Of a stretch of 64,000 nucleotides of DNA, positions 8,061 to 45,718 are shown piece after piece. This DNA is from Alkaliphilus serpentinus (lineage in GTDB: Bacteria > Bacillota > Clostridia > Peptostreptococcales > Natronincolaceae), in contig NZ_WBZB01000025.1 in assembly GCF_009017255.1 (NCBI RefSeq), forward strand, positions 34,239 through 98,238, written 5' to 3'. The translations under genes and the position numbers were made by a program. The first letter of the stretch is position 1; every line of letters begins with the position of its first letter. The notes below the pieces were generated by a model. That model did not search any database, was not told the DNA's origin, and saw nothing but the letters and a program-made list of their open reading frames with translations.

Positions 8061-8089
8061 ATTTTAACATATATACTATAAAGTGTCAA
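8061..8089 (-). promoter_or_regulatory. sigma-A promoter of the cold shock gene
   Basis: TTGACA (8084-8089), 17-base spacer, TAAAAT (8061-8066) on the minus strand; predicted start near 8054, about 70 bases before the ATG. Confidence 0.8.
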
Positions 8090-8120
8090 CTATATCAGGC
8101 CTCTTACTTTTCCATATTCT

Positions 8121-8867: not shown

Positions 8868-8902
8868 AATTTCTCTCCTATACTACTGATCATCTATCAA
8901 TA

Positions 8903-9100: not shown

Positions 9101-9450
9101 GATCATCCCTCCATTATCTATTATGGTGGGATATTTCATAAATTATACAGCTCTAGTCGTAATTTCACCCATTGGTTTATATTCCCTAAAGTTTTATTGC
9201 GATTTAGTAATAGAACAAAGGGAAATGTTAAACTTATGTCACATTTACATTAGCTTGTTGCTTGTATGATTTTTTAATGATAAATTATAAATGGTTAAAA
9301 AACCTAGTCTTATTTCTCACTCCCCCGTGAAAAATAGATAAAGAAAGGACTGCTCACCCCAGTCCTTTTTTGTTTTTTGATTTTTCCCAACCAGCTTATG
9401 TCCTTTTACTCTTTCATTAGATTATGGTTAACGTTTTTTTCGCTATCTAA
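9101..9450. other. intergenic gap: one terminator, no gene seen
   Basis: Apart from the terminator at 9344-9372, this 350-base stretch shows no frame with a ribosome binding site and no RNA structure I recognise. Confidence 0.6.
9344..9372 (-). terminator. bidirectional-looking terminator after the CPBP gene
   Basis: AAAGGACTG, 7-base loop, CAGTCCTTT. On the minus strand it is followed by CTTTATCTATTTTT; on the plus strand by TTTGTTTTTTG. The only neighbouring gene it can serve is the CPBP gene at 9451. Confidence 0.7.
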
Positions 9451-31022: not shown

Positions 31023-31694
31023 CTAAATTAATTTCACCCTTGTGCAATTAGTACCTCTTTTATTTTTAAAGACTTTAATAAACCTAGACCTTTTAGAATC
31101 AAAGCACTGTATTGGTTGAATCTCTAAAATAAAAAATAGCTCCTTTATCTTTTCATCAGTAACTATTGGCTGAGGAGTTTCCCATTCAACTTCAAAATCT
31201 TCATTATCAAGAAATTGATTCTCATCTAATAACAAGGGTTCCATACAGCTTACCACTTCAAAGGCAGTTCTTTGAGTAGATAGACTTCCTATAACATTTA
31301 TACTGGTAATCTCTTTAAAATCTTCCAGCGGGGGAAATTGCTGAAGGTTTATAGTTTTGACATCGTTAAACCCTCCAGTTAATATATTATTAAAAGTACT
31401 AAAATCAAGGGGTATAGTTAATTCTTTTTTTATATGTAAGTAATCCTTTCCTACTGAAAACCTCTTGGTTTTCAATGTAAATTCAAACCTAACTCCTTCT
31501 ACTTCCCTTACTCTAGCTGTAATTCCCTGATTTTCTAAATAGTAATCCTCTGTATCCAAATAATAATTAGTCTGCTTTATTGTTGAAATGACATCAAAAT
31601 TTTCATAAAGATACTCCTTTAATCTTAAAAAATCGCTTTTACATAGTAAGTACTTTAACTCCATTTCAATTACTGGTTCTTTTATAGCTATCAA
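31023..31694 (-). CDS. CYTH-domain protein (triphosphatase-like)
   Basis: A 223-residue CYTH/TTM-superfamily protein. The defining ExExK motif is EMELK (residues 10-14). TIKQTNYYLDTEDYYLENQGITARVREVEG and RFEFTLKTK carry further ligands of the triphosphate-binding tunnel. Members hydrolyse inorganic triphosphate, thiamine triphosphate or make cyclic AMP; which one is unknown. The TTG at 31694 sits directly against AAAGGAG, so spacing is poor and the true start is uncertain. It is the last gene of the minus-strand accessory cluster, 100 bases after the nucleotidyltransferase. Confidence 0.75.
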   Translation of the reverse strand: MIAIKEPVIEMELKYLLCKSDFLRLKEYLYENFDVISTIKQTNYYLDTEDYYLENQGITARVREVEGVRFEFTLKTKRFSVGKDYLHIKKELTIPLDFSTFNNILTGGFNDVKTINLQQFPPLEDFKEITSINVIGSLSTQRTAFEVVSCMEPLLLDENQFLDNEDFEVEWETPQPIVTDEKIKELFFILEIQPIQCFDSKRSRFIKVFKNKRGTNCTRVKLI

Positions 31695-31794
31695 CTCCTT
31701 TAAAGATTAGTAGTTATGTTAAATTCAAAATTATTTTATTATATGTCATATATATATTATCTTATAAACTTTACTGGCATATCTTTTGCTTTAT

Positions 31795-32523
31795 TTAGAT
31801 TGCAGAATTCATATGATCCTTATGTACTATTATCTCATGTTGTTTATACTTCACATATACATCAAAGTCTTTAGGAGTTCCGATATCAAAAAAAATATTT
31901 TCTACTTTATAAGCTAATACTTCGCCCTCAAGTATATATTTTTCTAAGACCTTATCCAATTGTGAGTAAATGGGCATAATTCTCAATACTTCTTTATTAA
32001 ATAAGTATAAACCTCCGTCAATATACTCTTCTTCTGTTTCATTACCTTTAGGTATAAAATCTGTAACTTTATTTTCCTGATTAATTCTTAATCTTCCGAA
32101 ACGCATATCTGGCCTATACTTTGTAGTTAATATTGTAACTTTAGAGTGAACTTTTATCATTTCATTAAGATTAATACTACAAAATACGTCTCCATACCCA
32201 ACTAGTACTATATCAGTTTCAATAAGCTCACTTGCTTTTTTTAATGCTCCTCCTGTACCTAATTTATCGTTTCCCTCATTGCTATATATGATATTTATCC
32301 CCCTGTAATTGTAACCAAAATAATCAACAATCATATCACCTAGATAGCCTATAGCAAGTATTATTTTATTTATGCTGTCACCCATTTCATTAATTATTTC
32401 ATCTAATTTATATCTCAAAAATGGTATCCCCTCGATTTTTACCATTGGCTTTGGTAGTCTGTTTTTTGTTATCTCCCTCAATCTTTTTCCTTCTCCGCCA
32501 ACTAGTAAAATAACATCTATCAT
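31795..32523 (-). CDS. sugar-phosphate nucleotidyltransferase (HddC/GlmU-like)
   Basis: A 242-residue NTP-transferase fold. LLVGGEGKRLREITKNRLPKPMVKI (6-30) is the GxGxRL...PK signature. KLGTGGALKKASELI, VGYGDVFCSINLNEMI and ILTTKYRPDMRFGRLRI place it near D-glycero-manno-heptose-phosphate guanylyltransferases and related enzymes that activate sugar-1-phosphates. The ATG follows AGAGGAGAAAAA. In the cluster it would supply an NDP-sugar for the glycosyltransferase at 38026-39261; that is inference from proximity. Confidence 0.85.
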   Translation of the reverse strand: MIDVILLVGGEGKRLREITKNRLPKPMVKIEGIPFLRYKLDEIINEMGDSINKIILAIGYLGDMIVDYFGYNYRGINIIYSNEGNDKLGTGGALKKASELIETDIVLVGYGDVFCSINLNEMIKVHSKVTILTTKYRPDMRFGRLRINQENKVTDFIPKGNETEEEYIDGGLYLFNKEVLRIMPIYSQLDKVLEKYILEGEVLAYKVENIFFDIGTPKDFDVYVKYKQHEIIVHKDHMNSAI

Positions 32524-32556
32524 TTTTTCTCCTCTCCCCTTATTTCTAAATTCAAA

Positions 32557-33243
32557 CTAACTACATCCCTTTGATGAATGATAATATTTAGTCAGTTCAG
32601 AGTGCAGCTGTTTATATTCTGCTATTAGAGTTTCTTTATCAAATGAATTCTGTTTAAATTTTAAGCTTAGTATTTTATCTTTTAACTCTTCCTTATTCAT
32701 ATTATCAGCCTCTATTGTTATAAATGTCTGACTTTTCATGATTGTTTGATATAAATCATAAAAATTTATTTGTGCATTTATTACGTCTTTATTAACCCAA
32801 AAATCACTTAGTTTTTTCTTGGTGTTTCTTCTTGAAACAGTATCATAGGTAATCTTTAGATAAACATAATAATCAACATGAAATGCATATGGATTCTTTT
32901 TAACTATATTTATAATGTCATCAAACAATCCATCCAATGTGTTATAACCTCTTTTCAAACAATATCCATAGGTTATGGCTATTACGGAAGGTAGTGCTCT
33001 ATCAGCAAAAGATAGTTTAGTTAGTGAGCTTTTCTTTCCTAATTCTGCCCTTTTAATTTCTAAGTCTAAGATAAACTTTTCATTGATTCTAGCCTCTAGA
33101 AAATTTGTTGGAGGTGGTGGAAAATTTGATGCCATTTTACCAGTCTCAGGTACAACAAAAAATCCATCAGATTTCAACGATGATAATAATGTAGTTTTCC
33201 CCGCATTGCATACACCCTCAATTACACAAAACCCTTTATTCAT
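32557..33243 (-). CDS. P-loop nucleoside/thymidylate kinase-like protein
   Basis: A 228-residue P-loop NTPase. Walker A is GVCNAGKTT (10-18). A polar PETG segment follows the P-loop, and RRNTKKKLSDFWVNKDV near 130 looks like a kinase lid with paired arginines. The overall shape resembles deoxynucleoside or thymidylate kinases (AAA_28/dNK). The ATG at 33243 has AAGGAG 9 bases upstream; a GTG 6 bases earlier is less well placed. Together with the NDP-kinase-like neighbour it suggests a phosphorylation step in the pathway. The substrate is unknown. Confidence 0.65.
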   Translation of the reverse strand: MNKGFCVIEGVCNAGKTTLLSSLKSDGFFVVPETGKMASNFPPPPTNFLEARINEKFILDLEIKRAELGKKSSLTKLSFADRALPSVIAITYGYCLKRGYNTLDGLFDDIINIVKKNPYAFHVDYYVYLKITYDTVSRRNTKKKLSDFWVNKDVINAQINFYDLYQTIMKSQTFITIEADNMNKEELKDKILSLKFKQNSFDKETLIAEYKQLHSELTKYYHSSKGCS

Positions 33244-33270
33244 ATACACAAGCTCCTTTTGTATTGATTA

Positions 33271-33756
33271 TTATCGGGTCCATCTTTGCAAAAATAAATC
33301 ATATTCAAACAATTCATTTTCTTTGAAAAATACTTCAATCTCATAATTACTCTTATCAAGATTAGAACAGTGAAGCAAATTACGTGCAGGGTGCATGGAT
33401 AAATCCCCCCTTATAGTACCTGATATGCCTACTTTTCCACAAACCTCATTTGCATTCTTATTGCCATTAATGCCCTCTACAACTAATACTATTACAGGAC
33501 CTTCTGTATGATATCGCAACATTTCATCAAAATATGGTAAATCAAAACAGTTTGAATATAGATTACACATTATTTCTTCATTTAGATTTACCATCTTAAT
33601 TCCAATTATTTTTAAACCTTTCTTTTCAATTCTTTTGATTATTTCTCCCACTAAATTTCTTTGAATAGCTTCAGTTCTTATTAAAAATAAAGCCCTGCTA
33701 ACTTTATCCCGTTCATTCTCAATACTTAATCCTTGTTCAAAGACATCTATACTCAT
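33271..33756 (-). CDS. nucleoside diphosphate kinase-like protein with altered active site
   Basis: A 161-residue protein of the NDK fold. RALFLIRTEAIQRNLVGEIIKRIEKKGLKIIGIKMV, EGPVIVLVVEGINGNKNANEVCGKVG, TIRGDLSMHPARNLLHCSN match NDK blocks. The phosphohistidine is kept (His about 129 in NLLHCSN). The normal IKPDGV is IRTEAI, so the catalytic lysine position is arginine, and HGSD is HCSN. It may phosphorylate an unusual acceptor or be non-catalytic. The ATG follows GGAGGTTAGT. The PEP-synthase-like gene ends 47 bases upstream. Confidence 0.85.
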   Translation of the reverse strand: MSIDVFEQGLSIENERDKVSRALFLIRTEAIQRNLVGEIIKRIEKKGLKIIGIKMVNLNEEIMCNLYSNCFDLPYFDEMLRYHTEGPVIVLVVEGINGNKNANEVCGKVGISGTIRGDLSMHPARNLLHCSNLDKSNYEIEVFFKENELFEYDLFLQRWTR

Positions 33757-33803
33757 ACTAACCTCCATAAATTAAATAATTCTCCAAATTCAAAATACCA
33801 CCT

Positions 33804-35717
33804 TTAGAAGACTATAAATTCTCCATTATTAATCATAACTTCATCGCCATCATTTATTCTATCAAAAATGTCTTGGTCAATTATTGCAGGTTTACCCTTC
33901 TCTCTTAGAATAATTGATAGATGACATAGTAAAGATCCTCTTCGAAAAACAAAACCCTCAACATGCTCAATTAATGTAACAAGCGTTTCTTTTGGATATT
34001 CACAGACTAATATTGTATCTGTACGTTCATTAATTATTTTCTTTTTAATTTCTTTTATTTCATCACTTTTTTTCATTTCTGATAGTTTATGTCCCATTCT
34101 TATGCTTACTTCTTGTATATATTTATCGAATACGGATATGTCATTAAGAATTTTTACTTTCCCCTTTGCTATTCCACTTGATAATATATTGCTACTTAGA
34201 TAAGTATTTCCAATCTTTGTTTTTTCAACTGTTAGGTCAAACAAATATATATCCTCTTTATTACCAATCCATTCTAGTCTAACCTCACCGTATTTTTTTT
34301 TTATAATAGCCGTCATATTTATAATCTTTTGTATTACTTCTTTAGAAATAGTTAAGGGGTTTTTCTCTATATCTCTTACTTGCCATTTCCCATCATTAGG
34401 ATTGAGGAAGTATTCTTGTTCAAACTCTTCAATTGTTTCACTTATTATGCTTCCATTCAAATCTACAATATATTTTGTTGGATTAAAGCCTTCATATAAT
34501 CCAGTGAAACCACCCTTAACAGTTTCAATATATATTTTTCCATCCAAATAAGTTGAGAAACCACAATATTCTGTTGAAATTGACTCACCTATCCTCAATA
34601 CCTGGCTATCTTTATATTCTTTATTTATAATTTCTTTTAAATATTGTTTATCTATCAACATGTTTTTCTTTCCATCTACTACTTCGATTATATTGCTTCT
34701 CATGTAGAAAATAATATTATCAACATCATTATGATATTTATCATTACTGCTAAAGTAATAGATAAACCTTTGTAAATTAATATTGTTCTCTTTGCAATAC
34801 TTTCTAACAGGTATTTTTTTTTCAAGCCATCTTGAGTGCATTGATGTACAGTTTTGTAGATTGAACTTTGTTACCATAGCATCTTCAGTTTCAAAGATAT
34901 TTTTTTCCATAACTGCTGATAATGTTGTAATTGGTCTTACTTGTAAAAAATATAAAGTACCCATAGTGTATACCCATTCAACGTCTATGGGCTTTTCTCT
35001 CAATATCTCAATATCTAATAAGCTTTTAATTAATTCATCAAAAGGGTAATCTATGCTTTCTGAACAAATTTCTAATTTATTAAAAATTTTGCATTCACAA
35101 AAACCTGAGCCACTAACTACTTCTTTGCTACCATCTTTGGATACTTCTATAACTATTTCACGTTCATCCATGGTAACAGGATTAGCAGTAAAGGCTACCC
35201 CTCCAAATTCTGGTATTATTTGCTCTTGAACTATTAACGATATGGCATAATCTCTTCTTTTTCCTACAATTACATCTATCATGTCATTAAATGAAGATAT
35301 CCAGCATAGCTTTATTGCGTCTATAAATTTATTAAACTGGTAGATATCTCCAATACTCTTATATAATCCAGCACAACTTGACAATTCATTATCTTCAATA
35401 CTTGAAGAACTCCTTACTATAATTGGCTTTTTTAACTTTTCATAGGTATCATATAAAACATTTAAGACTTCTTCATTGAAATGACCATTATATATTTTTT
35501 CTCTAATTTCATCATATTGAAAAAGCTCATCTCTACTTTCTTCTATAGTAATATTATTGTTTATTACATAATCCTCATATAATTCTTTTGTAAGTACATA
35601 CCCTTTTGGGACTGTATAACCCCTATTTATTAAGATATTAAGCCAATATGCCTTACCACCTAGATAGTTTTCATCGTAGTAAATACAGTCTCTTAAACTT
35701 CTAACAAAGCCCATCAT
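33804..35717 (-). CDS. PEP-synthase-like dikinase/phosphotransferase
   Basis: A 637-residue protein. The ATP-grasp PPDK N-domain has NYLGGKAYWLNILINRGYTVPKGYV (about 17-41), PIIVRSSSSIEDNELSSCAGLY (about 94-115), ISLIVQEQIIPEFGGVAFTANPVT and VEWVYTMGTLYFLQVRPITT. The C-terminal mobile domain carries GSLLCHLSIILREKGKPAIID with the phosphorylatable His at about 599. There is no PEP-binding TIM barrel. This swivelling ATP-grasp plus His layout matches antibiotic phosphotransferases of the rifampin type, which make AMP, Pi and a phosphorylated product. The acceptor is unknown. It is the largest gene of the accessory cluster, in the strand order of the pathway genes. Confidence 0.8.
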   Translation of the reverse strand: MMGFVRSLRDCIYYDENYLGGKAYWLNILINRGYTVPKGYVLTKELYEDYVINNNITIEESRDELFQYDEIREKIYNGHFNEEVLNVLYDTYEKLKKPIIVRSSSSIEDNELSSCAGLYKSIGDIYQFNKFIDAIKLCWISSFNDMIDVIVGKRRDYAISLIVQEQIIPEFGGVAFTANPVTMDEREIVIEVSKDGSKEVVSGSGFCECKIFNKLEICSESIDYPFDELIKSLLDIEILREKPIDVEWVYTMGTLYFLQVRPITTLSAVMEKNIFETEDAMVTKFNLQNCTSMHSRWLEKKIPVRKYCKENNINLQRFIYYFSSNDKYHNDVDNIIFYMRSNIIEVVDGKKNMLIDKQYLKEIINKEYKDSQVLRIGESISTEYCGFSTYLDGKIYIETVKGGFTGLYEGFNPTKYIVDLNGSIISETIEEFEQEYFLNPNDGKWQVRDIEKNPLTISKEVIQKIINMTAIIKKKYGEVRLEWIGNKEDIYLFDLTVEKTKIGNTYLSSNILSSGIAKGKVKILNDISVFDKYIQEVSIRMGHKLSEMKKSDEIKEIKKKIINERTDTILVCEYPKETLVTLIEHVEGFVFRRGSLLCHLSIILREKGKPAIIDQDIFDRINDGDEVMINNGEFIVF

Positions 35718-35726
35718 CTTTTCCCC

Positions 35727-37298
35727 TTATCTAAAAATATTTTTAGTATTTGATTTTAAATTTAAAGATGTGTAGAAATCATTAATTTTATTAACTAACT
35801 GGTCATTTTCTCTATAATTATCAACTAAAGTATAGTACTTATCACGGATTTTTGAAAAATCTTCGATTCTACTATTCAACAACTCCTCGAAGGCGTCATA
35901 ACACATCTTATCAAACTCAACCCTTAGGTTGTTGAAAAAATCATCATTTAGATTTAGTTTCAGTTCTAATTTCATTTTAGTAGGCATCCTTAATATTTCT
36001 CTAAAATCTAATATGTTATTAATTATCTTTAATAAATAAGAATATATTTGTCTTATTTCTTCATTTTTAAATTTTATACTTCCATCTTCATTAATTAAAT
36101 CTTCTTTTTCAATCCTTCTTCTTATTGGTGTATTATAATAAGGAATTATTGATACAGTTAATTTTTTGGGTGTTACATTAAATTCCCTTAAGAACTTAAC
36201 ACTCTCCATCAATGTTTCTCTTGATGAATAAGGATTGAACATAATATATCCAATATTTAGCCTTAAAGTTGAATTAACATCACACTTAAAGCCTATTTCG
36301 TTGAGTTCCCTAAGTTTTTTTATAACGTCAGTTACACCAGCTACTCTTCCATAAATTTTTAACTCATCTTCATTTATAGATTCGATTCCAGTAAATATAC
36401 CTCTAAGCCCAATTTTTCTTAATTCATCTATAGAATCAATGTGCAGGTTATCAGGTCTACACTGAATGAAAAAATTTAAGTTTTTTATTTCACTTCTCTT
36501 AATATATCTGGTAAATTTATCTATTTTTTCTCTCGCATCACTCAGCCTTCTAGGAACAAAATTGTCGTCTTCAAAAATAAACTTCCTAATTCTGAAGGTG
36601 TTATATAAATTCTGCATTTCTTCAACAATTGACTCTACTGATCTTTCTCTATAATTCTTCCCTTTTTGTAACTTAGAAAATGATTGTACAGAGCAGTAGC
36701 TACAGTTCATATAACAGCCTCTACTACCAATAATTTGTGCCGCAATCTCATCTCCAAATTTTTTATGTAATTGAAATAAAACATCTCTACTCATGAAAGG
36801 AAGATCATCTAAATTGTCAGTTCTTTCTGATGGTTCATTAATAATAATCTTCCCGTTCGAATCCTTGAAGGCTATACCTGGTAAATTTTTAGTTGTTTCT
36901 CTCTTTAATAGCCTATCTAAATACATTATAAAACTCTTTTCACTCTCACCAATAAATACTGCATCTACTATATCATGTAGGAATAGTTCAGGTCTTATAG
37001 AAGGCCCATGTCCACCAATAACAATAGTAGTTTTTCTATTAGACTGCTTATATTTTTCAAGAAAATTAACTATATCTTCTGTTTTAAAGCCCACAACTGA
37101 AATACCCAATACATCATGTTCTTCTAAAAGAACTTTATCATAAGCTATATCAACGCTATCGCCATCTATACAAGGATCATAAATGGAAACTTTGTATGAA
37201 GTGCTTTTCTTTATTACTGATGCTAAAATAGAAATACCCAATGGTTCAGATATTTTCTTAATATTAAACATTCCATTAACTAAGAGAACCTTTTTCAC
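35727..37298 (-). CDS. cobalamin-binding radical SAM enzyme
   Basis: A 523-residue protein. The N-terminal B12-binding fold has DVLGISVVGF and TIVIGGHGPSIRPELFL, without the DxHxxG base-off motif. The radical SAM CX3CX2C is GCYMNCSYC (Cys about 195, 199, 202). FIFEDDNFVPRR, QCRPDNLHI and FTGIESINEDELKIYGR follow the class. Members methylate unreactive carbons or build rings. The frame begins in GAGGTG at 37310, but GTG at 37298 has that site 9 bases ahead and is preferred. The deacetylase stop is 19 bases upstream. In a peptide pathway it could modify the precursor; this is inferred. Confidence 0.9.
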   Translation of the reverse strand: MKKVLLVNGMFNIKKISEPLGISILASVIKKSTSYKVSIYDPCIDGDSVDIAYDKVLLEEHDVLGISVVGFKTEDIVNFLEKYKQSNRKTTIVIGGHGPSIRPELFLHDIVDAVFIGESEKSFIMYLDRLLKRETTKNLPGIAFKDSNGKIIINEPSERTDNLDDLPFMSRDVLFQLHKKFGDEIAAQIIGSRGCYMNCSYCSVQSFSKLQKGKNYRERSVESIVEEMQNLYNTFRIRKFIFEDDNFVPRRLSDAREKIDKFTRYIKRSEIKNLNFFIQCRPDNLHIDSIDELRKIGLRGIFTGIESINEDELKIYGRVAGVTDVIKKLRELNEIGFKCDVNSTLRLNIGYIMFNPYSSRETLMESVKFLREFNVTPKKLTVSIIPYYNTPIRRRIEKEDLINEDGSIKFKNEEIRQIYSYLLKIINNILDFREILRMPTKMKLELKLNLNDDFFNNLRVEFDKMCYDAFEELLNSRIEDFSKIRDKYYTLVDNYRENDQLVNKINDFYTSLNLKSNTKNIFR

Positions 37299-37316
37299 TA
37301 ACCCAACCACCTCAAA

Positions 37317-38051
37317 TTAAAACAACTCTTCGTATGTTATTTTTTTATAATTTTTTTTCATGAAAATTATGGCTTCTTTACTTTTTAAAATATTGTATTC
37401 TTTTTCTCTGCTCTCATTGTAGTTATCATTAATATTACTGGATGAGTACCCAATATGAGTCACTAATTCTAACACATTGCCTTCTATTTTTGGTAATTGC
37501 ACCAACAAATTGTCTAGGGTAGCACCTTCATCATAAAAATCAAGAAAGCATCTATCAGTACACTTTATTCCATTTTTTCTTAAGGTTGCTGTCATTTCTT
37601 CGTTGATTGATCTTACAGCTAAGTTATATTTTTGAGCTAGTTTCACAACAACACTGAAAACTTGACTTAATTCATGTATATGGTTATGCGTATCTAAGTA
37701 GCTAATATTTACAATTGATTTTACTTTATCTATTTGAGATTCAAATTCTCTTTCAATTATTTCTTCTTTTATAGAATACTGAACCCTGCCGTCTTTTCTA
37801 AAAAACTTAGGAAAATTATAATTAACTAAATACTCTAAAGGATATTCACTGTACATGGGTTTACCAAGGGTCAGGTTTAAATGGACACCAAAAGCAATAT
37901 TAGATTTTTTTAAGCTGCCTAGATTATTCAATATACCATTTGCTAATATTGATGTTCCAGTAATAATGCTATAAAAGACAGCCTCTTCAATTCCTTCATT
38001 TACCTCCCTTGATATTCCATAATCGTCAGCTGTTACTATAATTTTTTTCAT
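37317..38051 (-). CDS. YdjC/ChbG-family carbohydrate deacetylase
   Basis: A 244-residue YdjC-type deacetylase. VTADDYGISREVNEGIEEAV (about 6-25), GVHLNLTLGKPM (about 60-71) and DTHNHIHELSQVF carry the family DDYG, H and HxH metal ligands. Such enzymes deacetylate N-acetyl amino sugars or hopanoid lipids. The ATG at 38051 has GGAGGG upstream and overlaps the glycosyltransferase end by 26 bases. Paired with the upstream glycosyltransferase it suggests a deacetylated amino-sugar decoration. Confidence 0.88.
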   Translation of the reverse strand: MKKIIVTADDYGISREVNEGIEEAVFYSIITGTSILANGILNNLGSLKKSNIAFGVHLNLTLGKPMYSEYPLEYLVNYNFPKFFRKDGRVQYSIKEEIIEREFESQIDKVKSIVNISYLDTHNHIHELSQVFSVVVKLAQKYNLAVRSINEEMTATLRKNGIKCTDRCFLDFYDEGATLDNLLVQLPKIEGNVLELVTHIGYSSSNINDNYNESREKEYNILKSKEAIIFMKKNYKKITYEELF

Positions 38052-39261: not shown

Positions 39262-39290
39262 ATTTAACCTCTTGTCATTAAATATATTTT

Positions 39291-40253
39291 CTAGCAAAAT
39301 AGGTAATACACTTTATTACCATCAAGTAAGTTTCTCATTTGCTTGTTATACGAATGCCACCTACAATCATAAAGGTTGCATTCATCAACAACTATATTAT
39401 TTATCTTTTCTTTATGTATTTGTGAGGCCCAAATTTGACTAAAAGTTTTTTCAAATACATTTCCTATCCTGTGTTTATCTGGCCTATTTACATAATAGCA
39501 ACAAATATAAAGATCTCCATATGGATCAATTAGTGCATGAATTGGAGACATCCAACATTTTTCATTAATAATCGACTTCTCTAATCCAACAACAATAACC
39601 TCGCTATTGATTTGTTTTAGAAGCTGTGATAGTTCTTTTGCCTGCTGAACAGTTATTTCGCATTCTGAATTTCTTTCAGCTTTTATTGAGATTAAATTTA
39701 AATCTAAATATGTTAACTCTACGCATTGGCTAGGTATCATATCTATGTTACGATTAGAAACCAGCAGTTTACTAGAAACTTCAATTGTTGAACCATTACT
39801 TTTTTTTAGTTCAATCAACTTTTTTAATCCATCAAATACTTCATAAAAGGTGCTGTCATATAATGAAATTCTAATATAAGATGCATTGTTTATAATTAGA
39901 TTGCTTATTTCATCATCTAATAATATTCCATTAGTCATAATCCCAAAAGCTAATTTTTTATCTTCTGTAATGTAGGTTATCATTTCTTTAATATATGGAT
40001 GAAGCAAGGGTTCCCCACCACCACAAAATTCTATAGATTCAACTCCGTACTCTTTTAACTCTGTGATTAGTTTTTTAAATTTCTCAAAATCCATGTAAAT
40101 AGGGTTATAATTATCAGATTGACATATACAGCCCTTGCAGTCCAAATTGCATCCATAAACAGGATATATTATTGCTGTTCTTGGTTTACATATACCACCA
40201 TTGTATAATATTTTAGCTTCATTATAATAAGTTAAAATCCTTGAATATGCCAT
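39291..40253 (-). CDS. radical SAM protein with SPASM-type C terminus
   Basis: A 320-residue radical SAM enzyme. The cluster motif is YGCNLDCKGC (Cys about 35, 39, 42), with the SAM-binding GGGEPLLHPYI (about 82-92). The C-terminal region CWMSPIHALIDPYGDLYICCYYVNRPDKHRIGN and later CNLYDC supply the cysteines expected of a SPASM/twitch auxiliary cluster. SPASM enzymes modify ribosomal peptides (PqqE, thioether or cyclophane makers), usually with a PqqD-type partner, and one is encoded at 44436-44705. The ATG follows GAGGTACTGTAT. It is the best candidate for core-peptide modification. Confidence 0.9.
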   Translation of the reverse strand: MAYSRILTYYNEAKILYNGGICKPRTAIIYPVYGCNLDCKGCICQSDNYNPIYMDFEKFKKLITELKEYGVESIEFCGGGEPLLHPYIKEMITYITEDKKLAFGIMTNGILLDDEISNLIINNASYIRISLYDSTFYEVFDGLKKLIELKKSNGSTIEVSSKLLVSNRNIDMIPSQCVELTYLDLNLISIKAERNSECEITVQQAKELSQLLKQINSEVIVVGLEKSIINEKCWMSPIHALIDPYGDLYICCYYVNRPDKHRIGNVFEKTFSQIWASQIHKEKINNIVVDECNLYDCRWHSYNKQMRNLLDGNKVYYLFC

Positions 40254-40291
40254 ATACAGTACCTCTATCAATAATATTATATTTTTAGATA

Positions 40292-41071
40292 TTAGTTAGT
40301 AATAATGTCATCTGCTTTAAGATAGCAGTCACAATATTCTCTATTTCTGATATTCGATAGTGCATTCCTAATGATATCTACTGTTTTATCAATATGTTTA
40401 TTTACTTCTTCGCGACAATCTTTTCTTAAAACTAGATTCCCCTCAATACCTGCTCCATAATTAACGATTAAAGCAATAGTTGCATAGCACAGTCCTAATT
40501 CCCTCGCTAGAATTACCTCGGGTATATTAGTCATGCCAACTACATCTCCACCAAGAATACTATATGCTTTTACTTCAGCTGCAGTTTCAAACCTTGGTCC
40601 ATCAACTCCTACATAGCAACCACTTTCTTTATAATCAACACCTATTTTTTCACAGGAATTAGCCAAGACTTGCCTTAAGCTATTACAGTAGGGGTACGTA
40701 AAGTCAACAAAAGCAAATTCATCTTTATTATAGACTGTGAAAATCCTATACTTTGTAAAATCCAAAAATTGATCTATTATAATATGGTCTCCTGGTTTAT
40801 ACTCAGGCCTTAAGCTACCTACAACTGATGTTGCCAATATTGAATTAACCTGCAACAGCTGCATTGCTTTCATTATTCTAAGATAATCAACAGAATGAGG
40901 TGGACATGCCCCTTTCCTTATATTTCTAACAAAGAAGTATATATCTATTCCATGAAAATCTCCAGATAAATATTTTATACTTTCTAAGTCAACTATTATT
41001 TCCTTTTCTATATATGAATCGCATATTCTATAAAACTCAAATCCCGTACTGCCAATAATACCTACTTTCAC
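40292..41071 (-). CDS. MTA/purine nucleoside phosphorylase family protein
   Basis: A 259-residue protein of the MTAP/PNP family 2. GIIGSTGFEFY (phosphate loop, about 5-15), ACPPHSVDYLRIMKAMQLLQVNSILATSVVGSL, CYVGVDGPRFETAAEVKAYSILGGDVVGMTNIPEVILARELGLCYATIALIVNYGAG contain the purine- and ribose-site motifs. The GTG at 41071 follows AGGGGAG 8 bases upstream. In a pathway with two radical SAM enzymes it could clear 5'-deoxyadenosine or methylthioadenosine, or it could split a pathway nucleoside. It starts 41 bases after the permease stop. Confidence 0.85.
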   Translation of the reverse strand: MKVGIIGSTGFEFYRICDSYIEKEIIVDLESIKYLSGDFHGIDIYFFVRNIRKGACPPHSVDYLRIMKAMQLLQVNSILATSVVGSLRPEYKPGDHIIIDQFLDFTKYRIFTVYNKDEFAFVDFTYPYCNSLRQVLANSCEKIGVDYKESGCYVGVDGPRFETAAEVKAYSILGGDVVGMTNIPEVILARELGLCYATIALIVNYGAGIEGNLVLRKDCREEVNKHIDKTVDIIRNALSNIRNREYCDCYLKADDIITN

Positions 41072-41111
41072 TAAAAACACTCCCCTTACTATTATAACAA
41101 TAAAAATCTAT

Positions 41112-41906
41112 CTAATATAATTCAAGAGTAGCCTTTCTTTTTGCTATATGCTCTGTAATTATAATGAACATATAACCCAAGGCTATATATACTATACCTA
41201 CAAAAATTTCCTTAACTATCAAGCTGTATATAACTTGAGTACTACCTCCATTCATCAATAAATTTGCAGCTTTTATACTTCTTGTAATTGGTAAGCAATA
41301 GGATATTATTCTGATTGAATTAGGAAGAGTTTCGATTGGAAAGTTTGCTCCAGTTAGTGCTATTAAAATCATAGAAACTATATTGGCAATGAAGTTCATG
41401 CTACTCGTTACTAATCCAAAACTTCCAAGTAGTAATCCTAATCCAGCCACTGAAAACATTGCTACTAGTGCAATAATTATAAATATCGGAATACTAATGT
41501 TACTAAAACTAACATTAAATACAATTGAACCAATAATTAATCCAATAGCCACCGTGGATAGAGAATCTATGATATGAACAAAACCTCTTTGAAAAAATGT
41601 TAAGAATTTATTAAAGGGAGCGGCAATAATCATTTTTAATGTTCCTGCATACCTATCCATCACAAAAACATGACCAATACCAAAAATTGAATTATATATA
41701 CACAGTAGAAATGAATTTCCAATTACCCAGGGTGTTAGATCATTTGTTTTAAAGCTATACTTTGCTAGTAAGCAAAAGAACAATAATTGAAAAATGGGAT
41801 TTAAAACTTTTACAAAAAAATATGTTTTTGGTTCTATCCATCCAAATAATGCTTTAAAAGATAACCAAGATTGAACAAAAAATCTTTCTATACCTTCAAA
41901 ACTCAT
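41112..41906 (-). CDS. ABC-2 type exporter permease 2
   Basis: A 264-residue six-helix ABC-2 permease: FFVKVLNPIFQLLFFCLLAKYSF, LGLLLGSFGLVTSSMNFIANIVSMILIALTGANFPIETLP (the conserved ABC-2 loop), and helix pairs before and after. Works with the ATPase at 42690 and the first permease at 41908. The TTG at 41915 is passed over for the ATG at 41906 with GGAG 9 bases upstream, although then it no longer overlaps permease 1. Confidence 0.87.
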   Translation of the reverse strand: MSFEGIERFFVQSWLSFKALFGWIEPKTYFFVKVLNPIFQLLFFCLLAKYSFKTNDLTPWVIGNSFLLCIYNSIFGIGHVFVMDRYAGTLKMIIAAPFNKFLTFFQRGFVHIIDSLSTVAIGLIIGSIVFNVSFSNISIPIFIIIALVAMFSVAGLGLLLGSFGLVTSSMNFIANIVSMILIALTGANFPIETLPNSIRIISYCLPITRSIKAANLLMNGGSTQVIYSLIVKEIFVGIVYIALGYMFIIITEHIAKRKATLELY

Positions 41907-41907
41907 A

Positions 41908-42693
41908 TTAAACAACTCCTAACGTAGCCTTTATTCTTGTCTTATTATCAATTATCTTAAAAAGTATATTTGACAAAATGAAGTATATTATTGTAATCGT
42001 AGTTAAAATACCAAAGTATTTACAAAATATGTCATTGCCCTCTAAACCCTCAACTGATAATCGTAATAATTTTACAGCCCAGGTTGGAGATAGTATATAG
42101 CTTAATGGAATTGTCCACTTTGGTAATATCTCTATAGGAAATAATATGCCACATAATATAAAGACTGGATATTCAATACAATTCATTAATATTCTTGAGC
42201 TTCTTGATAAAGTAAAAACTGCAGCAAATAGCATAGAAATGCCCATAAAAGATGCAATTGTAATAATCATTGAAATACCAAAAGCCATAGGATCTTTAAT
42301 ATACATATCTCCTCCTAAAAATAACCTAACAAATGCAAATGATATAAAAAAAGGTAATAAACCTAACATTGTATTTCCTAAAATTTTGCCAAGGATTATA
42401 ACTTTGAAGTTTGTTGGAGTATTATAAATTACCTGTAGAGTTCCCATATATCTTTCACGTTCTATATCGCCAGCTGATGAAAAACATATACAACTCCATA
42501 ATGTTAATATCCCTGTGCCCAATACAGTATATGCAACAAAGTTGTCATGGCCTGAATTAATAAACATTTTGTATGTTATTAGCGAATAAATTATTGGTTG
42601 AATGAGTAAGCAAAACCTGAAAGTAGGTCTGGTTACTGCTTCTTTCATCTGTAGCTTAGCAGTAGAATATATTGTTTCTAATACAGTTATCAT
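41908..42693 (-). CDS. ABC-2 type exporter permease 1
   Basis: A 261-residue ABC-2 permease with six membrane segments and the conserved loop SRILMNCIEYPVFILCGILFPIEILPKW. The ATG follows AGGAGGTAGTAT and overlaps the ATPase stop by 4 bases, so translation is coupled. The paired permeases form the heterodimeric channel; export of the cluster product, or self-resistance, is the natural role. Confidence 0.88.
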   Translation of the reverse strand: MITVLETIYSTAKLQMKEAVTRPTFRFCLLIQPIIYSLITYKMFINSGHDNFVAYTVLGTGILTLWSCICFSSAGDIERERYMGTLQVIYNTPTNFKVIILGKILGNTMLGLLPFFISFAFVRLFLGGDMYIKDPMAFGISMIITIASFMGISMLFAAVFTLSRSSRILMNCIEYPVFILCGILFPIEILPKWTIPLSYILSPTWAVKLLRLSVEGLEGNDIFCKYFGILTTITIIYFILSNILFKIIDNKTRIKATLGVV

Positions 42694-43667
42694 ATACTAC
42701 CTCCTACCAGTCTTACATAAGCATCTTCTAGTAAAGCTCCTCTTTCATTTACAGAGATAACTGTGTTGTTTTTTAGAACATTTAGTACATTTTGTGTTAT
42801 ATTATGAGTGTTTTTAAACTGTATTAGTATTAATTGCCATTGATCATTTTTTTTGACTGCTACAGTTTCTACCCCTTCTATTTTTTTAATCTCTTCAAGT
42901 TCTTTATCGTAAATACCTAATACATTTATTTCAAGTACTGAAGTTATTCTATTTTGCTTCTTCAAATTAACTGGGGTATCCAATGCTACAATCTTACCCT
43001 TGTTAATAATTGCAATTCTATCACATAGCTCATCAGCTTCATGCATATAATGTGTTGTTAGTAATATAGTTTTTCTTCTCAACGAAAGCTCTTTTATTAT
43101 ATCTCTTAGCTCTCTTGCTCCAATTGGATCCAATCCGATTGTCGGCTCATCTAAGTAAATTATCTCAGGATCATTTATTAATCCCCTAGCTATTTGTAAT
43201 CTTTGAATCATCCCCTTTGAATAGGTTTCAACCTTTAAATCACCTTTTTCAGAAAGCCCTACTAGCTCTAGCAATTCGTCTATTCTTTTATCTCGTATAT
43301 TTTTCCTAATCTTGTATAGATTTGAAAAATATACCAAATTATCTCTTCCTGATAATCTCCTATATACACCTAGCTCCCCGCCAAAAATAAAATTTATATG
43401 CTGCCTAATCATATTTTCTTCTCCAAATGTCTTATACCCTAATACCCTACTTTCACCTGAAGTAGGTGCTAGTAGTGTTGAAAGAATTTTAATCGTTGTT
43501 GTTTTCCCTGCCCCATTTGGCCCTAATAATCCAAAAATTTCACCTTTTTTAACCTCGAAAGAAATTCCCGCGAGTGCTTTAACTATAACTTTTTTTTTAT
43601 TAAGCCATCCTTTAGTAGTCTCATAATCTCTATACAAATTTTCAACACAAATAACTGAATCCTTCAT
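42690..43667 (-). CDS. ABC exporter ATP-binding protein
   Basis: A 325-residue NatA/CcmA-type ATPase. Walker A is GPNGAGKTT (49-57), the ABC signature YSKGMIQRLQIARGL (149-163), Walker B IIYLDEPTIGLDP (169-181) and the H-loop LLTTHYMHEADEL. A C-terminal extension of about 100 residues follows (ITSVLEINVLGIYDKELEEIKKIEGVETV). The ATG has AAAGGAGGACAATA upstream. Start of the three-gene exporter. Confidence 0.95.
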   Translation of the reverse strand: MKDSVICVENLYRDYETTKGWLNKKKVIVKALAGISFEVKKGEIFGLLGPNGAGKTTTIKILSTLLAPTSGESRVLGYKTFGEENMIRQHINFIFGGELGVYRRLSGRDNLVYFSNLYKIRKNIRDKRIDELLELVGLSEKGDLKVETYSKGMIQRLQIARGLINDPEIIYLDEPTIGLDPIGARELRDIIKELSLRRKTILLTTHYMHEADELCDRIAIINKGKIVALDTPVNLKKQNRITSVLEINVLGIYDKELEEIKKIEGVETVAVKKNDQWQLILIQFKNTHNITQNVLNVLKNNTVISVNERGALLEDAYVRLVGGSI

Positions 43668-43682
43668 TATTGTCCTCCTTTA

Positions 43683-44432
43683 TTAAATCTGATATTGGCT
43701 ATTCTTAGTAAAGTGATAATGATAATAGTAGCTTTTAATTGAATGTAGTATATGTGGGGAATTATATGTCACATGAGCAATAATACATGGTAATATTGAT
43801 TTAGATAAAATATAAAGGATTGAGTTAATCAAAGCAAATGTTATTTGCACAATATAGTCATACTTCTTAAAACCATTGTTCCACTTAACACCAAAGTGAT
43901 TCAAAAAGAACAATACACAGCTTAAAAGAATAGAAATATACCAATATCCTTGAGTAGTATATCCAATAATAAAATTTCTAAAGAAAATCTCTTCACTTAT
44001 TGCAGCACCCAATAACATGAAAACTTGAGTGTAATAATATACTCTAGAACTTTTTCTTGAGAATTCAATAATATCCATAGATAATGCAATACGCCAGTCT
44101 TTATACTTAGGGGCAATAAACGCTACTCCAATAAATAAACCTAAAGAACACCAGAAAAGCAAGTAATCACATTTAATATCTAGTTTAAAATCAGTTAATA
44201 AAGGTAGTAAATATGGTATAACATATAATGATCTTCTAATAACTGTAAAAAGTCCATAATTCTTTTCTGAATAAAATCTTTTGGCATTACCTACAAAAAC
44301 TATAATCATTGTCCAAAAAAATAATAATACTACATATTTAATATCAACAAAGAACGCTAAAATAGAAAGAACTAGCACACTAAACCATAATAGGTTTTCA
44401 TTCATTTTCATTACCGCACTATCAGTACTCAT
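43683..44432 (-). CDS. CPBP intramembrane protease
   Basis: A 249-residue membrane protein of the CPBP family. Motifs are AISEEIFFRNFIIG (Glu147-Glu148, Arg152), VLFFLNHFGVK and PCIIAHVTYN. CPBP proteins in peptide antibiotic clusters act as leader processing proteases or as immunity proteins. No clear ribosome binding site precedes the ATG, which lies 3 bases past the PqqD-like stop, so translation is probably coupled. It ends 15 bases before the ABC ATPase. Confidence 0.85.
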   Translation of the reverse strand: MSTDSAVMKMNENLLWFSVLVLSILAFFVDIKYVVLLFFWTMIIVFVGNAKRFYSEKNYGLFTVIRRSLYVIPYLLPLLTDFKLDIKCDYLLFWCSLGLFIGVAFIAPKYKDWRIALSMDIIEFSRKSSRVYYYTQVFMLLGAAISEEIFFRNFIIGYTTQGYWYISILLSCVLFFLNHFGVKWNNGFKKYDYIVQITFALINSILYILSKSILPCIIAHVTYNSPHILHSIKSYYYHYHFTKNSQYQI

Positions 44433-44435
44433 AAT

Positions 44436-44705
44436 CTATACACATGCATTAATAATATTTTTGTCAGCTAATCCTTCAATGAAATCTAATATATCTTTTT
44501 CTATAGTCTCTTTATCAATCTCTTCATACTGAGACTGAATTAAGTTTATTAAATACTCCGTATTATTCTCTCCGTTAAGATTATTCCAAATTAATAATGC
44601 TAGTTCATTTAGTTCTAGGCAATGACTAGGACCAAACAAAATATTTCTATTATCTAATTTTCTTATCCTATAAAGAATATTTCTTTTATAAACATTTCGA
44701 ACCAT
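44436..44705 (-). CDS. PqqD-like peptide recognition protein (RRE)
   Basis: An 89-residue PqqD-family protein. NILFGPSHCLELNELALLIWNNLNG (about 21-45) is the central winged-helix pattern with the N..A..IW core, followed by NTEYLINLIQSQYEEIDKETIEKDILDFIEGLADKNII. PqqD-type domains (RiPP recognition elements) bind leader peptides and deliver them to tailoring enzymes, often a SPASM radical SAM. The ATG at 44705 is chosen because GGAGG lies 8 bases upstream; the longer frame overlaps the preceding gene. With the 24-residue peptide at 45644-45718 it is the key evidence for a RiPP. Confidence 0.85.
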   Translation of the reverse strand: MVRNVYKRNILYRIRKLDNRNILFGPSHCLELNELALLIWNNLNGENNTEYLINLIQSQYEEIDKETIEKDILDFIEGLADKNIINACV

Positions 44706-44706
44706 A

Positions 44707-45564
44707 CTAAATACCTCCATCTTGTCCAATTTTTTGTATTATTTCGTTAGAGAAGTTAATTATCTTTTCAACGTTTAATCTAATATTGTTTCTTTCATCT
44801 AATTTTTCTTCATAATATAATTTAGCAAAGGTTTTATATTGCGTTTCTACTTCTTCATCATAAAGTCCTAAGTTCTTCAGCTTTAAGGGAATCCATTTAT
44901 CTCTATCTAGTGACGTTTTTTTATTAAAAATGTATGCCTTCATTGTTTCTAACAAAATATTTCTTGCAACTACTAGAGCCACTTCATATTGATGATTTTG
45001 AATGTTACCTATTGCATCCTCGTAAAAAACATCAACGTTATTTACTGCTAACCTTACCATTAATTTAAAATAATTATCCCTTTTTAAAAAATTACTAATC
45101 TGATAAAACACCTCTTCATTATATACTGGAATTCCATTTAAAAACCTATGTATAAATGAAGTAAAGCTATTCAAATCAAACCCAACTGGTAAATTTAATA
45201 AATTAAATGTTCTTATGTTAGTATTAAAGTCACAATTATTTAACTGTTCAATTAAATCTAAAATCACTTGCTTTGAGTATATTTCAATATCTAGGCTTAT
45301 ACTACATAATCTTTTAAATTGAGTTTTAAGATATTCTTTGTCATAGTCCAGCTTTGATTTTTGAATTTTTTTTATGTCATTCGATAAAATAAAAACATCA
45401 ATATCAGATAATTTATTGCCCATTCCATTGGAAAGCTTATTAATGCTACCTTCTATAAGCGAACCACCTAAAAAAATAATATCTTCTTCTTCATAATCGA
45501 GTTTTTCAAGTATATCCTTCTTGTTAAGAATAATATTTCTTTGCTTTATTTCAATAGAATCCAT
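44707..45564 (-). CDS. nucleotidyltransferase-fold protein with helical C terminus
   Basis: A 285-residue protein. LGGSLIEGS (residues 32-40) then LSDIDVFIL (52-60) is the GGS...DxD pol-beta nucleotidyltransferase signature. The remaining 220 residues are helical, and resemble antibiotic or MNT/HEPN-like proteins in outline only. The ATG at 45564 has AGGGGGG five bases upstream; a longer frame to 45615 would overlap the stem-loop 45590-45629. It is the first enzyme gene after the precursor, and similar nucleotidyltransferases accompany some lasso peptide clusters of Bacillus. A nucleotidyl or phosphosugar modification of the peptide is possible. Confidence 0.75.
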   Translation of the reverse strand: MDSIEIKQRNIILNKKDILEKLDYEEEDIIFLGGSLIEGSINKLSNGMGNKLSDIDVFILSNDIKKIQKSKLDYDKEYLKTQFKRLCSISLDIEIYSKQVILDLIEQLNNCDFNTNIRTFNLLNLPVGFDLNSFTSFIHRFLNGIPVYNEEVFYQISNFLKRDNYFKLMVRLAVNNVDVFYEDAIGNIQNHQYEVALVVARNILLETMKAYIFNKKTSLDRDKWIPLKLKNLGLYDEEVETQYKTFAKLYYEEKLDERNNIRLNVEKIINFSNEIIQKIGQDGGI

Positions 45565-45580
45565 AGTTACCCCCCTGTTT

Positions 45581-45629
45581 GAAAAAGTACATATGAACAG
45601 ATAATGAATTAACATTGTCTGTTCATATG
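45581..45629 (-). terminator. 12-bp stem-loop between precursor and first enzyme gene
   Basis: CATATGAACAGA (45618-45629 on the minus strand), 16-base loop, TCTGTTCATATG (45590-45601), then TACTTTTTC. The perfect 12-bp stem follows the precursor stop by 14 bases. It fits a partial terminator or RNA-stabilising element that gives more precursor than enzyme mRNA. Confidence 0.8.
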
Positions 45630-45643
45630 CTGAAAATCCTAGC

Positions 45644-45718
45644 TTACTTTGGCATATCTGGCATTAATGCTGCCGGAAATTGGATTTCCTTTGCTTTAGG
45701 AGCTACATACTTTTTCAT
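45644..45718 (-). CDS. 24-residue putative RiPP precursor peptide
   Basis: Starts ATG at 45718 with the strong site AAAGGAGGTG 5 bases upstream (GGAGG is 7 bases from ATG), and stops with TAA at 45644-45646. The sequence begins MKKYVAPKAKEIQF and ends PAALMPDMPK. The Tyr-x-x-Pro segment (YVAP, residues 4-7) is the motif that RRE/PqqD-type domains grip in several leader families. The size is near that of PqqA. The C-terminal part, rich in Pro, Met and Ala with one Asp and one Lys, is the probable core. It is followed by a stem-loop and then the biosynthetic operon. Evidence is position, ribosome binding site and motif; no homologue could be searched. Confidence 0.7.
   Translation of the reverse strand: MKKYVAPKAKEIQFPAALMPDMPK

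Follow-up and report, generated by a model that had tools for sequence, protein, structure and literature searches.

The window, by which we mean the whole 64,000-nucleotide stretch of Alkaliphilus serpentinus DNA that was analysed, carries on its minus strand a run of a 24-codon gene and 16 protein genes (positions 31023-45718) with intergenic gaps of -26 to 100 bases (Table 1). The G+C content of the run is 0.289 versus 0.362 outside it, and all 81 overlapping stretches of equal length taken outside lie above it (0.344-0.380), which bears out the AT-rich, single-strand run described in an earlier reading made from the letters alone. Pfam confirmed the PqqD, SPASM radical SAM, B12-binding radical SAM, CPBP/Rce1, ABC ATPase and two ABC2 permease assignments, together with GT2, YdjC, NTP_transferase, PPDK_N plus mobile domain, NDK and the PNP/MTAP superfamily. 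All the gene families named in the sequence-only reading are present, with Pfam matches except for the P-loop kinase and the nucleotidyltransferase (NT), but the CYTH protein encoded by the last gene had been overlooked. The NDP kinase, which that reading called degenerate, is divergent, yet our alignments show that it keeps the RNxxH active-site region and the active-site histidine.

Table 1. Features of the minus-strand run, in the order of transcription.
Feature	Position	Strand	Basis and remarks
24-residue precursor peptide MKKYVAPKAKEIQFPAALMPDMPK, YxxP leader	45644..45718	-	SD match; alignment with seven relatives
Hairpin, perfect 12-bp stem CATATGAACAGA/TCTGTTCATATG	45590..45629	-	Sequence; fold of 110 nt, native sequence only
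NT, aminoglycoside-nucleotidyltransferase-like fold	44707..45564	-	Likely start 45564; ORF open to 45615
PqqD-type peptide-binding protein (RRE)	44436..44729	-	TTG 44729, ATG at 44705; PF05402 1.2e-12
CPBP/Rce1-like intramembrane protease	43683..44432	-	PF02517 5.4e-14
ABC exporter ATPase, DrrA-like	42690..43667	-	PF00005 2.1e-27; drrA 286.1 bits, cut-off 312.45
ABC2 permease 1	41908..42693	-	PF01061 6.2e-15
ABC2 permease 2	41112..41915	-	PF01061 4.7e-08
MTA/purine-nucleoside-phosphorylase-like protein	40292..41080	-	MTAP model 189.5 bits, below cut-off 274.85
SPASM radical SAM enzyme, CxxxCxxC	39291..40271	-	PF04055 7e-14, PF13186 1e-08
GT2 glycosyltransferase	38026..39297	-	PF13641 3.9e-09
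YdjC carbohydrate deacetylase-like	37317..38051	-	PF04794 1e-37; ORF extends to TTG at 38087
B12-binding radical SAM enzyme, CxxxCxxC	35727..37310	-	PF02310 8.4e-12, PF04055 6.9e-18
PEP-synthase-like phosphotransferase, ATP-grasp + phosphohistidine domain	33804..35717	-	PF01326, PF00391
NDP-kinase-like protein, active-site histidine region kept	33271..33768	-	PF00334 5.2e-29; alignments
P-loop (deoxy)nucleoside/nucleotide kinase-like	32557..33249	-	dNK 20.9, TMPK 15.1 bits; below cut-off 27
Sugar-1-phosphate nucleotidyltransferase-like	31795..32523	-	PF00483 7.3e-25
CYTH (triphosphate tunnel type) protein, ExExK kept	31023..31694	-	PF01928 5.5e-14; L002/L018 alignment

The ribosome-binding site of the 24-codon gene (45718..45644) matches all 10 bases of AAGGAGGTGA. 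Similar peptides were found in eight loci that contain PqqD (the window and those labelled L003, L029, L030, L033, L034, L035 and L036), whose hosts are this genome, a Lachnospiraceae MAG, Parageobacillus, Corynebacterium, three Streptomyces and Nonomuraea. A strict rule, formulated after the peptides were known and with no separate loci found as an independent test set, asked for a 15- to 24-residue peptide that opens with M(K/R/Q/M)..Y-x-x-P and is preceded by a ribosome-binding site (SD of at least 5 bases), and returned exactly one peptide in each of the eight loci (7/8 with an SD of at least 6). The same rule returned none in 33 other stretches, made up of three NT loci without PqqD, four ACP-type pieces and 26 controls of real DNA (575,156 bp together), nor any in L061, a true PQQ operon; 100 random 64-kb sequences with the dinucleotide make-up of the window gave three matches, so the peptide stands above chance. 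Three of the peptides were first noticed by eye in the sequence, while those of Streptomyces and Nonomuraea came from a looser scan that also picked up chance ORFs. The looser pattern, with an SD of 5, gave 11 matches in the PqqD loci, one in L028 and three in the controls. Aligning short peptides near similar genes, a check that the sequence-only reading had proposed, thus yielded a family with seven further loci, and supports a RiPP-type cluster with a real short precursor.

According to PMC12710340, YxxP is an RRE-binding leader motif for PqqD-type domains. The eight loci therefore each have a short precursor with an RRE-binding leader motif, and the window also has the discrete PqqD-type RRE protein of an RRE-dependent RiPP (PF05402 48.4 bits, cut-off 23.4), the only one above cut-off in its genome. 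The cores behind the leader, as judged by eye on the alignment, comprise only about 6-10 residues. The L003 peptide is only 15 residues long, and an IS-type ORF (by eye) begins 72 bases behind it, so this peptide may be cut short; that of L036 has a GTG start and lies 8.5 kb away from PqqD. Precursors of 22-24 residues are easily overlooked in gene tables, and the PLSDB tables, themselves incomplete, contain no gene spanning the peptide in L029, L030, L033, L034 or L035.

The third recurrent element is the NT, for which neither Pfam nor NCBIfam gave a relevant match. Its model has the two-domain aminoglycoside-nucleotidyltransferase (ANT) fold with a GS...DxD site, as in the O-nucleotidyltransferases ANT(4'), AadA and LinB, but identity to these is 11-12% and the NT sits in biosynthetic operons adjoining PqqD. 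Relatives of the NT accompany PqqD in 7/8 loci, the contig of the eighth being short, and the two genes touch or overlap (gaps of -23 to 27 bases) in five of the seven loci that have both. Beyond these loci, three named Clostridia carry an NT at 61-65% identity; NT-bearing Clostridia include Abyssisolibacter fermentans and Clostridium thermarum. Peptide, PqqD and NT look like a constant head joined to varying small-molecule modules.

These modules differ widely. L029 contains an inositol-phosphate synthase, a HAD phosphatase, a split DegT aminotransferase and an SDR, and L035 an inositol monophosphatase and an NDK, with an annotated inosamine-phosphate amidinotransferase about 15.5 kb from the peptide; sugar or cyclitol genes thus recur among the peptide loci. 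AsnB-like genes occur in L033-L036. CPBP-type proteins were found in five of the eight loci, by Pfam in the window, by annotation in L029 and L030, and by BLAST in L003 and L036. Because the same opening motif is accompanied by very dissimilar sets of enzymes in bacteria that are not related, this cluster likely represents a new class of ribosomal natural product, with predicted sugar or phosphate decoration and export.

As to the module of the window, its SPASM enzyme is 44-60% identical to 29 relatives. The B12 radical SAM enzyme has relatives in L036 (BLAST E 8e-8) and in L033, where the radical SAM domain is above and the B12-binding domain below the Pfam cut-off. In the MTAP-like protein, VNYGAG stands in place of the TDYDVW of aligned MTAP, and NYGAG is shared with L002 and L003. 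The Walker A motif of the kinase is common to proteins in L002, L003, L030, L031 and L036, and a P-loop TMPK/dNK-like kinase is present in four of the eight peptide loci (window, L003, L030 and L036). By sequence, the nearest solved relative of the sugar-1-phosphate nucleotidyltransferase-like protein is a putative 6-deoxy-D-mannoheptose pathway protein. The PEP-synthase-like protein shares the ATP-grasp domain and the swivelling phosphohistidine domain with rifampin phosphotransferase and PEP synthase, and its model aligns with both, best as single domains; however, the PEP/pyruvate domain was not matched by Pfam, and its middle region is without assignment. The Cys-His of its LLCH motif is invariant in 12 sequences. 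Our full-text search found no paper joining such a phosphotransferase with PqqD, radical SAM, RiPP and precursor peptide; if the class is real, it would be an unusual enzyme partner.

The grouping of nucleotide-type enzymes raises the question of whether the SPASM enzyme, together with the kinase and the NDK-like and MTAP-like proteins, produces a viperin-like modified nucleotide, the peptide being incidental or regulatory. Indeed, the radical SAM core of the SPASM enzyme matches prokaryotic viperin models (2.7e-14), viperin chains also came up, and the kinase weakly matches the viperin-associated kinase VakA (2.1e-4). The viperin matches, however, span only about 105 residues of that core, as do those of many other models, a SPASM domain is present, and the peptide with PqqD in eight loci would be left unexplained; we therefore consider this pathway quite improbable.

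The module also occurs without the peptide. Six of the enzymes recur in L002 (SPASM 47%, GT2 38%, MTAP-like 48%, PEP-synthase-like 44%, NDK-like 48% and kinase 33%), which has no strict YxxP peptide and no BLAST hit to PqqD; what it has in their place is an acyl carrier protein, two proteins resembling a class-II aaRS and BtrH, respectively, and a CYTH protein. In L003, the genes from MTAP-like through kinase lie together with PqqD and the peptide. A homologous locus without a peptide, which the sequence-only reading had named as evidence against itself, thus exists, but the PqqD loci have the peptide in every case. The enzyme module is therefore not specific to the peptide, whereas the head module is. 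L002 adjoins apparent polysaccharide genes (by eye) and has PS_pyruv_trans, as does L003, which, with GT2, YdjC and the sugar nucleotidyltransferase, would suit a surface-glycan operon with a 24-codon ORF arisen by chance. Against this already disfavoured explanation, which we hold scarcely credible, stand the peptide family with its controls, the presence of PqqD, and the lack of any polymerase or flippase Pfam match among the 16 proteins.

The module of the window is found in one case beside an acyl carrier protein where a peptide is lacking, so the peptide may serve in part as a carrier. Taken to its limit, the peptide would be a platform on which a small molecule resembling a sugar, cyclitol or nucleoside is built and from which it is then cut off, with little or no peptide in the product, in the manner of pearlin scaffolds or of a carrier protein; scaffold peptides are an established principle (PMC9016710, PMC11117183). 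The short cores fit such a role, as does L029, which couples the peptide with an apparent aminocyclitol pathway and in which part of the C-terminal region of the HAD phosphatase resembles the PqqD of the window (28% over 74 residues, pairwise E 1e-8; no Pfam match up to E 1). Yet the acyl carrier set of L002 may serve another part of the product that also needs the module, and no peptide-loading enzyme was identified, and the 16 proteins gave no Pfam match to lantibiotic-dehydratase, the PEARL (LanB-like) ligase of pearlins (3-thiaglutamate, ammosamide). The window peptide also has 24 residues versus 50 in TglA. We regard a carrier-only peptide as rather unlikely.

Compared with known classes, the window shares with lasso peptides a PqqD-type RRE, a YxxP leader, an extra nucleotidyltransferase and, putatively, phosphate or sugar groups on the peptide. 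Its peptide is too short for a lasso, no AsnB-like cyclase or transglutaminase-like B2 protease was matched by Pfam among the 16 proteins, the lasso-specific PqqD model NF033536 gives 25.6 bits (cut-off 80), and the ANT-like NT differs from PsmN, which presumably belongs to PF14907. PsmN appears with the kinase PsmK for the lasso peptides paeninodin and pseudomycoidin (PMC9266682), and rumen lasso clusters have nucleotidyltransferase, HPr kinase, GT2 and PqqD genes (PMC7533575). Nucleotidyltransferases beside PqqD are thus already known; our full-text literature searches found no comparable class. PQQ operons likewise combine PqqD, a SPASM enzyme and a short peptide, and the PqqA of L061 starts in a similar style (MAWKKPVIKDI), but the window has neither PqqB/C, which define PQQ, nor a Glu-Tyr pair in the peptide core, and scores 35.7 bits with the PqqD equivalog TIGR03859 (cut-off 46). 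Mycofactocin clusters also hold a short peptide with an RRE protein, a SPASM enzyme and GT2; the MftC maturase model TIGR03962 reaches 64 bits versus a cut-off of 265. The peptide has no Cys, unlike the Cys-rich precursor of a SCIFF/ranthipeptide, and the SCIFF maturase model TIGR03974 gives 45.3 bits versus 425.

Our results partly support the RiPP-type reading, whose product would be a glycosylated, phosphorylated and exported peptide. The operon probably makes a ribosomally derived peptide conjugate, in which PqqD is predicted to hold the leader, through its YVAP, while other enzymes would modify or load the short core before release and export. The two radical SAM enzymes may introduce a carbon-centred modification into the core (about PAALMPDMPK) or its sugar. 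Kinase, PEP-synthase-like, NDK-like, MTAP-like and sugar nucleotidyltransferase proteins could prepare a phosphorylated sugar- or nucleoside-type unit, to be attached by GT2 and deacetylated by YdjC, with CYTH acting on a triphosphate. The NT might attach a nucleotide to one of the product's hydroxyls, either as a component of the finished compound or to keep it harmless inside the cell; CPBP would cleave off the leader at the membrane, and the product would leave through the ABC pump.

More tentatively, this may be a new RiPP class of Bacillota and Actinomycetota, in which a 22-24-residue YxxP mini-peptide, PqqD and an aminoglycoside-type NT together serve as an exchangeable carrier head for the assembly of peptide-aminoglycoside-like hybrids by different sugar, aminocyclitol or nucleoside modules, and one lineage swaps in an acyl carrier protein for the peptide. 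If the class is real, looking for a YxxP mini-peptide in the vicinity of PqqD and an ANT-like nucleotidyltransferase would be a simple search rule, opening a natural-product group in which sugar or cyclitol chemistry is combined with ribosomal peptides. If one enzyme module can indeed work with either a peptide or an acyl carrier protein, this would bear directly on the evolution of carrier-based pathways.

Finally, the hairpin lies between the peptide gene and the rest of the operon, which would share one transcript; it is possibly an attenuator or an mRNA stabiliser. By eye, no strong stem follows the peptide in L003 or L036, and strong stems do so in L029, L030, L033, L034 and L035.

In the window, a 24-codon gene is followed on the minus strand by 16 protein genes with intergenic gaps of -26 to 100 bases, in the order peptide, nucleotidyltransferase (NT), PqqD, CPBP protease, ABC ATPase, two ABC permeases, MTAP-like protein, SPASM radical SAM enzyme, GT2, YdjC, B12 radical SAM enzyme, PEP-synthase-like protein, NDK-like protein, P-loop kinase, sugar-phosphate nucleotidyltransferase and CYTH protein. 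The G+C content is 28.9% within the cluster and 36.2% outside. The adjoining transposase fragment (see table) would be consistent with a mobile or foreign block. The peptide, MKKYVAPKAKEIQFPAALMPDMPK, has a Shine-Dalgarno (SD) match of the full 10 bases, and a perfect 12-bp hairpin lies 3' of its gene. Its PqqD is the sole match above the Pfam cut-off in the genome, a second match falling below it. Since YxxP is a published lasso leader motif and PqqD is placed among the W/Y/LxxP binders in a 2025 study (PMC12710340), the PqqD of the window would be expected to bind the YxxP mini-peptide.

To find further loci we went from P0235, a close NT relative, to a distant NT on a Parageobacillus plasmid (L029), and from the latter and further NTs to others. 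Nine plasmid NT loci were opened (L028-L036). PqqD was also present in six of them (L029, L030 and L033-L036), while none was seen by annotation or BLAST within the stretches fetched for L028, L031 and L032. All six loci with PqqD have a peptide of 22-23 residues: MKKTYSTPKVTEVKVNTAVIINV in Parageobacillus, MKKAYRKPEATKAEFGAIMAWPG in Corynebacterium (L030), MRKYTKPTAKTISQGTVLRDNA, MRKYTKPAVKAITQGTVLRDTA and MQKYIKPATKKADFGTVVKNNV in Streptomyces and MKKRYVKPVVRHIDLLGAVIID in Nonomuraea. A Lachnospiraceae MAG contig reached through the PEP-synthase-like protein (L003) carries the peptide MMYEAPVLVRVIMVA 46 bases behind PqqD; the ORF that follows it (see table) suggests that this peptide may be truncated by an IS-type element.

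The peptides of L003, L029 and L030 were first detected by eye, and those of L033-L036 by a looser scan that also printed chance ORFs. A strict rule composed only after the peptides had been seen (a start, one or two of K/R/Q/M, an optional residue and Y-x-x-P, in 14-40 residues with an SD match of at least 5) gave exactly one match in each of the 8 PqqD loci (190,776 bp), whereas the 3 NT loci without PqqD, 4 ACP-type pieces and 26 control stretches (575,156 bp) had no match. With an SD match of 6, seven of the 8 PqqD loci were retained and L036 dropped out. At SD 6 the looser pattern matched 7 times in the PqqD loci and once each in L028 and the controls; at SD 5 the respective counts were 11, 1 and 3. 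When 100 random 64-kb sequences matching the window in make-up were scanned, the strict rule was satisfied 3 times. A true PQQ operon (L061) held no strict-rule peptide, and PqqD searches of plasmids for an independent test set returned nothing beyond the loci already known and a single true PQQ operon.

The genes around the peptide differ from locus to locus. L029 contains inositol-1-phosphate synthase, HAD phosphatase, methionine adenosyltransferase, a split DegT aminotransferase and an SDR, a set that points to an aminocyclitol route. L030 has a 2OG-Fe oxygenase and a TMPK-like kinase. L033 and L034 share asnB, a diiron oxygenase and MFS; L033 additionally has a radical SAM enzyme whose B12 domain scores below threshold. 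L035 combines asnB and a diiron oxygenase with inositol monophosphatase and NDK; an inosamine-phosphate amidinotransferase lies ~15.5 kb from its peptide, with transposase genes in between. In L036 a TauD oxygenase stands directly behind the peptide, and asnB, a kinase-like protein (TMPK below cut-off) and a CPBP-like protein (BLAST) are also present. The analysis establishes the gene content, the peptide family, the leader motif, the predicted aminoglycoside-nucleotidyltransferase (ANT)-like fold of the NT and the recurrence. We read a mini-peptide, probably held by PqqD, and this NT as a constant head; sugar, cyclitol or nucleotide-type modules vary. We consider it fairly probable that the product is a peptide conjugate and prefer this to the rather unlikely reading of the peptide as a pure scaffold; what we infer for such a conjugate is its binding by PqqD, the sequence in which the enzymes act, all of the chemistry, and its cleavage, export and activity.

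Two of these loci drew separate observations. The HAD phosphatase of L029 is a possible RRE fusion, judging by its C-terminal residues (see table); used as a query on plasmids it matched, besides itself, nothing but further HAD hydrolases or sites lacking annotation. The L030 peptide ends in AWPG at its C-terminus, and the product of this locus may target TrpRS.

Features with coordinates in the window and in the compared loci
Locus	Coordinates	Strand	Feature
Window	31023-45718	minus	Peptide cluster
Window	29894-30202		IS1634-type transposase fragment adjoining the cluster; weak model match, 25 bits vs cut-off 100
L002 (ACP-type locus)	7190-7918		242-residue protein similar to the PEP-synthase-like protein in the middle region of the latter only; catalytic ends absent
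L003 (Lachnospiraceae MAG)	9356-9408		Start of an ORF, IS-type by eye, 72 bases behind the peptide
L029 (Parageobacillus)	8274-9260		HAD phosphatase; C-terminal 83 residues PqqD-like by BLAST, not by Pfam
L030 (Corynebacterium glyciniphilum pCgly1)	7368-8977		Tryptophanyl-tRNA synthetase and GNAT genes adjoining the peptide cluster; ABC transporter genes farther away
L031 (Exiguobacterium plasmid)	9926-17343		NT relative without PqqD, adjoining a TMPK/dNK-like kinase; also alanyl-tRNA synthetase, aaRS-like protein, ATP-grasp protein and S66 peptidase
L035	4870-5886		NDK-like protein, 338 residues, N-x-x-H site kept

The enzyme module of the window recurs in part elsewhere. L002 has six of its proteins (SPASM, GT2, MTAP-like, PEP-synthase-like, NDK-like and kinase) with no strict-rule peptide and no PqqD match, and has ACP, aaRS-like, BtrH-like and CYTH genes instead. 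L003 has four, from MTAP-like to kinase, its MTAP-like gene being incomplete at the contig start. The PEP-synthase-like protein retains its ATP-grasp and phosphohistidine parts, and the NDK-like protein keeps RNxxH in the window, L002 and L003. The MTAP-like protein has Asn at the position of Asp in aligned MTAP, a residue that would point to 6-oxopurines. In protein databases, relatives of the SPASM and PEP-synthase-like proteins agree in longest-contig sizes, namely 98238 (the window's own), 37496, 16960 and 32723; the last three sizes suggest that the two may lie together on three further contigs. P0206, a SPASM enzyme relative, carries precomputed Hint/intein Pfam domains. L018 and L019 (G787:C31) hold an ACP (BLAST to that of L002), aaRS-like, two BtrH-like, CYTH and two PEP-synthase-like proteins, a relative of the NTP_transf_5 protein of L002, and genes of Sfp-like and AMP-binding type on visual reading; we regard them as a distant sister pathway without a strict peptide.

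The PEP-synthase-like protein was found in its own genome (1/1), in 1/297 of the sampled order (own) and in 2/391 of the class sample (own and a distant one in G787). The family of G787 gave 4/96 and that of G297 gave 6/397, comprising the one in G297, a distant one in G390, and four matches confined to the N-terminal part. Beside the PEP-synthase-like genes of G1119, G1138 and G1107, BLAST found no further cluster gene except ABC ATPases. The SPASM enzyme was found in 1/398 of the phylum sample (own), and the NT in 1/267 of the order sample (own) and 1/1 of the genus, its own genome only; a search without positive control found the NT in 0/106 of the G787 family. Viral contigs held no relatives of the PEP-synthase-like protein or the NT, and plasmids none of the PEP-synthase-like protein (query P0002) or the window's PqqD. 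L004 was rejected as a false relative.

Known systems were also weighed. Of the NCBIfam models, HpnJ scores highest for the B12 enzyme, yet with 87.5 bits against a cut-off of 577.6; with HpnK at 55.6 against 232.6 and no HpnI match listed, the analogy to an HpnG/H/I/J/K-like hopanoid set was dropped. The Campylobacter phosphoramidate pathway uses a glutamine kinase, a nucleotidyltransferase and a kinase; in considering this analogy we found no sugar nucleotidyltransferase in the L002/L003 cassette.

RiPPs with an RRE and YxxP are already known. The RRE-Finder paper describes RRE-glycosyltransferase fusions, and the word nucleotidyltransferase is absent from its main text (PMC7470986). Published accounts report lasso peptides acted on by a kinase plus a nucleotidyltransferase (PMC9266682) and rumen lasso clusters with nucleotidyltransferase, kinase, GT2 and PqqD genes (PMC7533575). 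Full-text searches of main articles revealed no class that has a mini-peptide, PqqD and an ANT-like NT as its defining features, and these clusters are possibly a new class.

The NT had no match in PADLOC. Its relative in L028 (Agrobacterium pAt1), where no PqqD was seen, lies near annotated tmk, nucleoside phosphorylase, pyrF and dihydroorotate dehydrogenase genes, and the gene set around its relative in L031 looks like an aminoacyl-nucleotide-type pathway.
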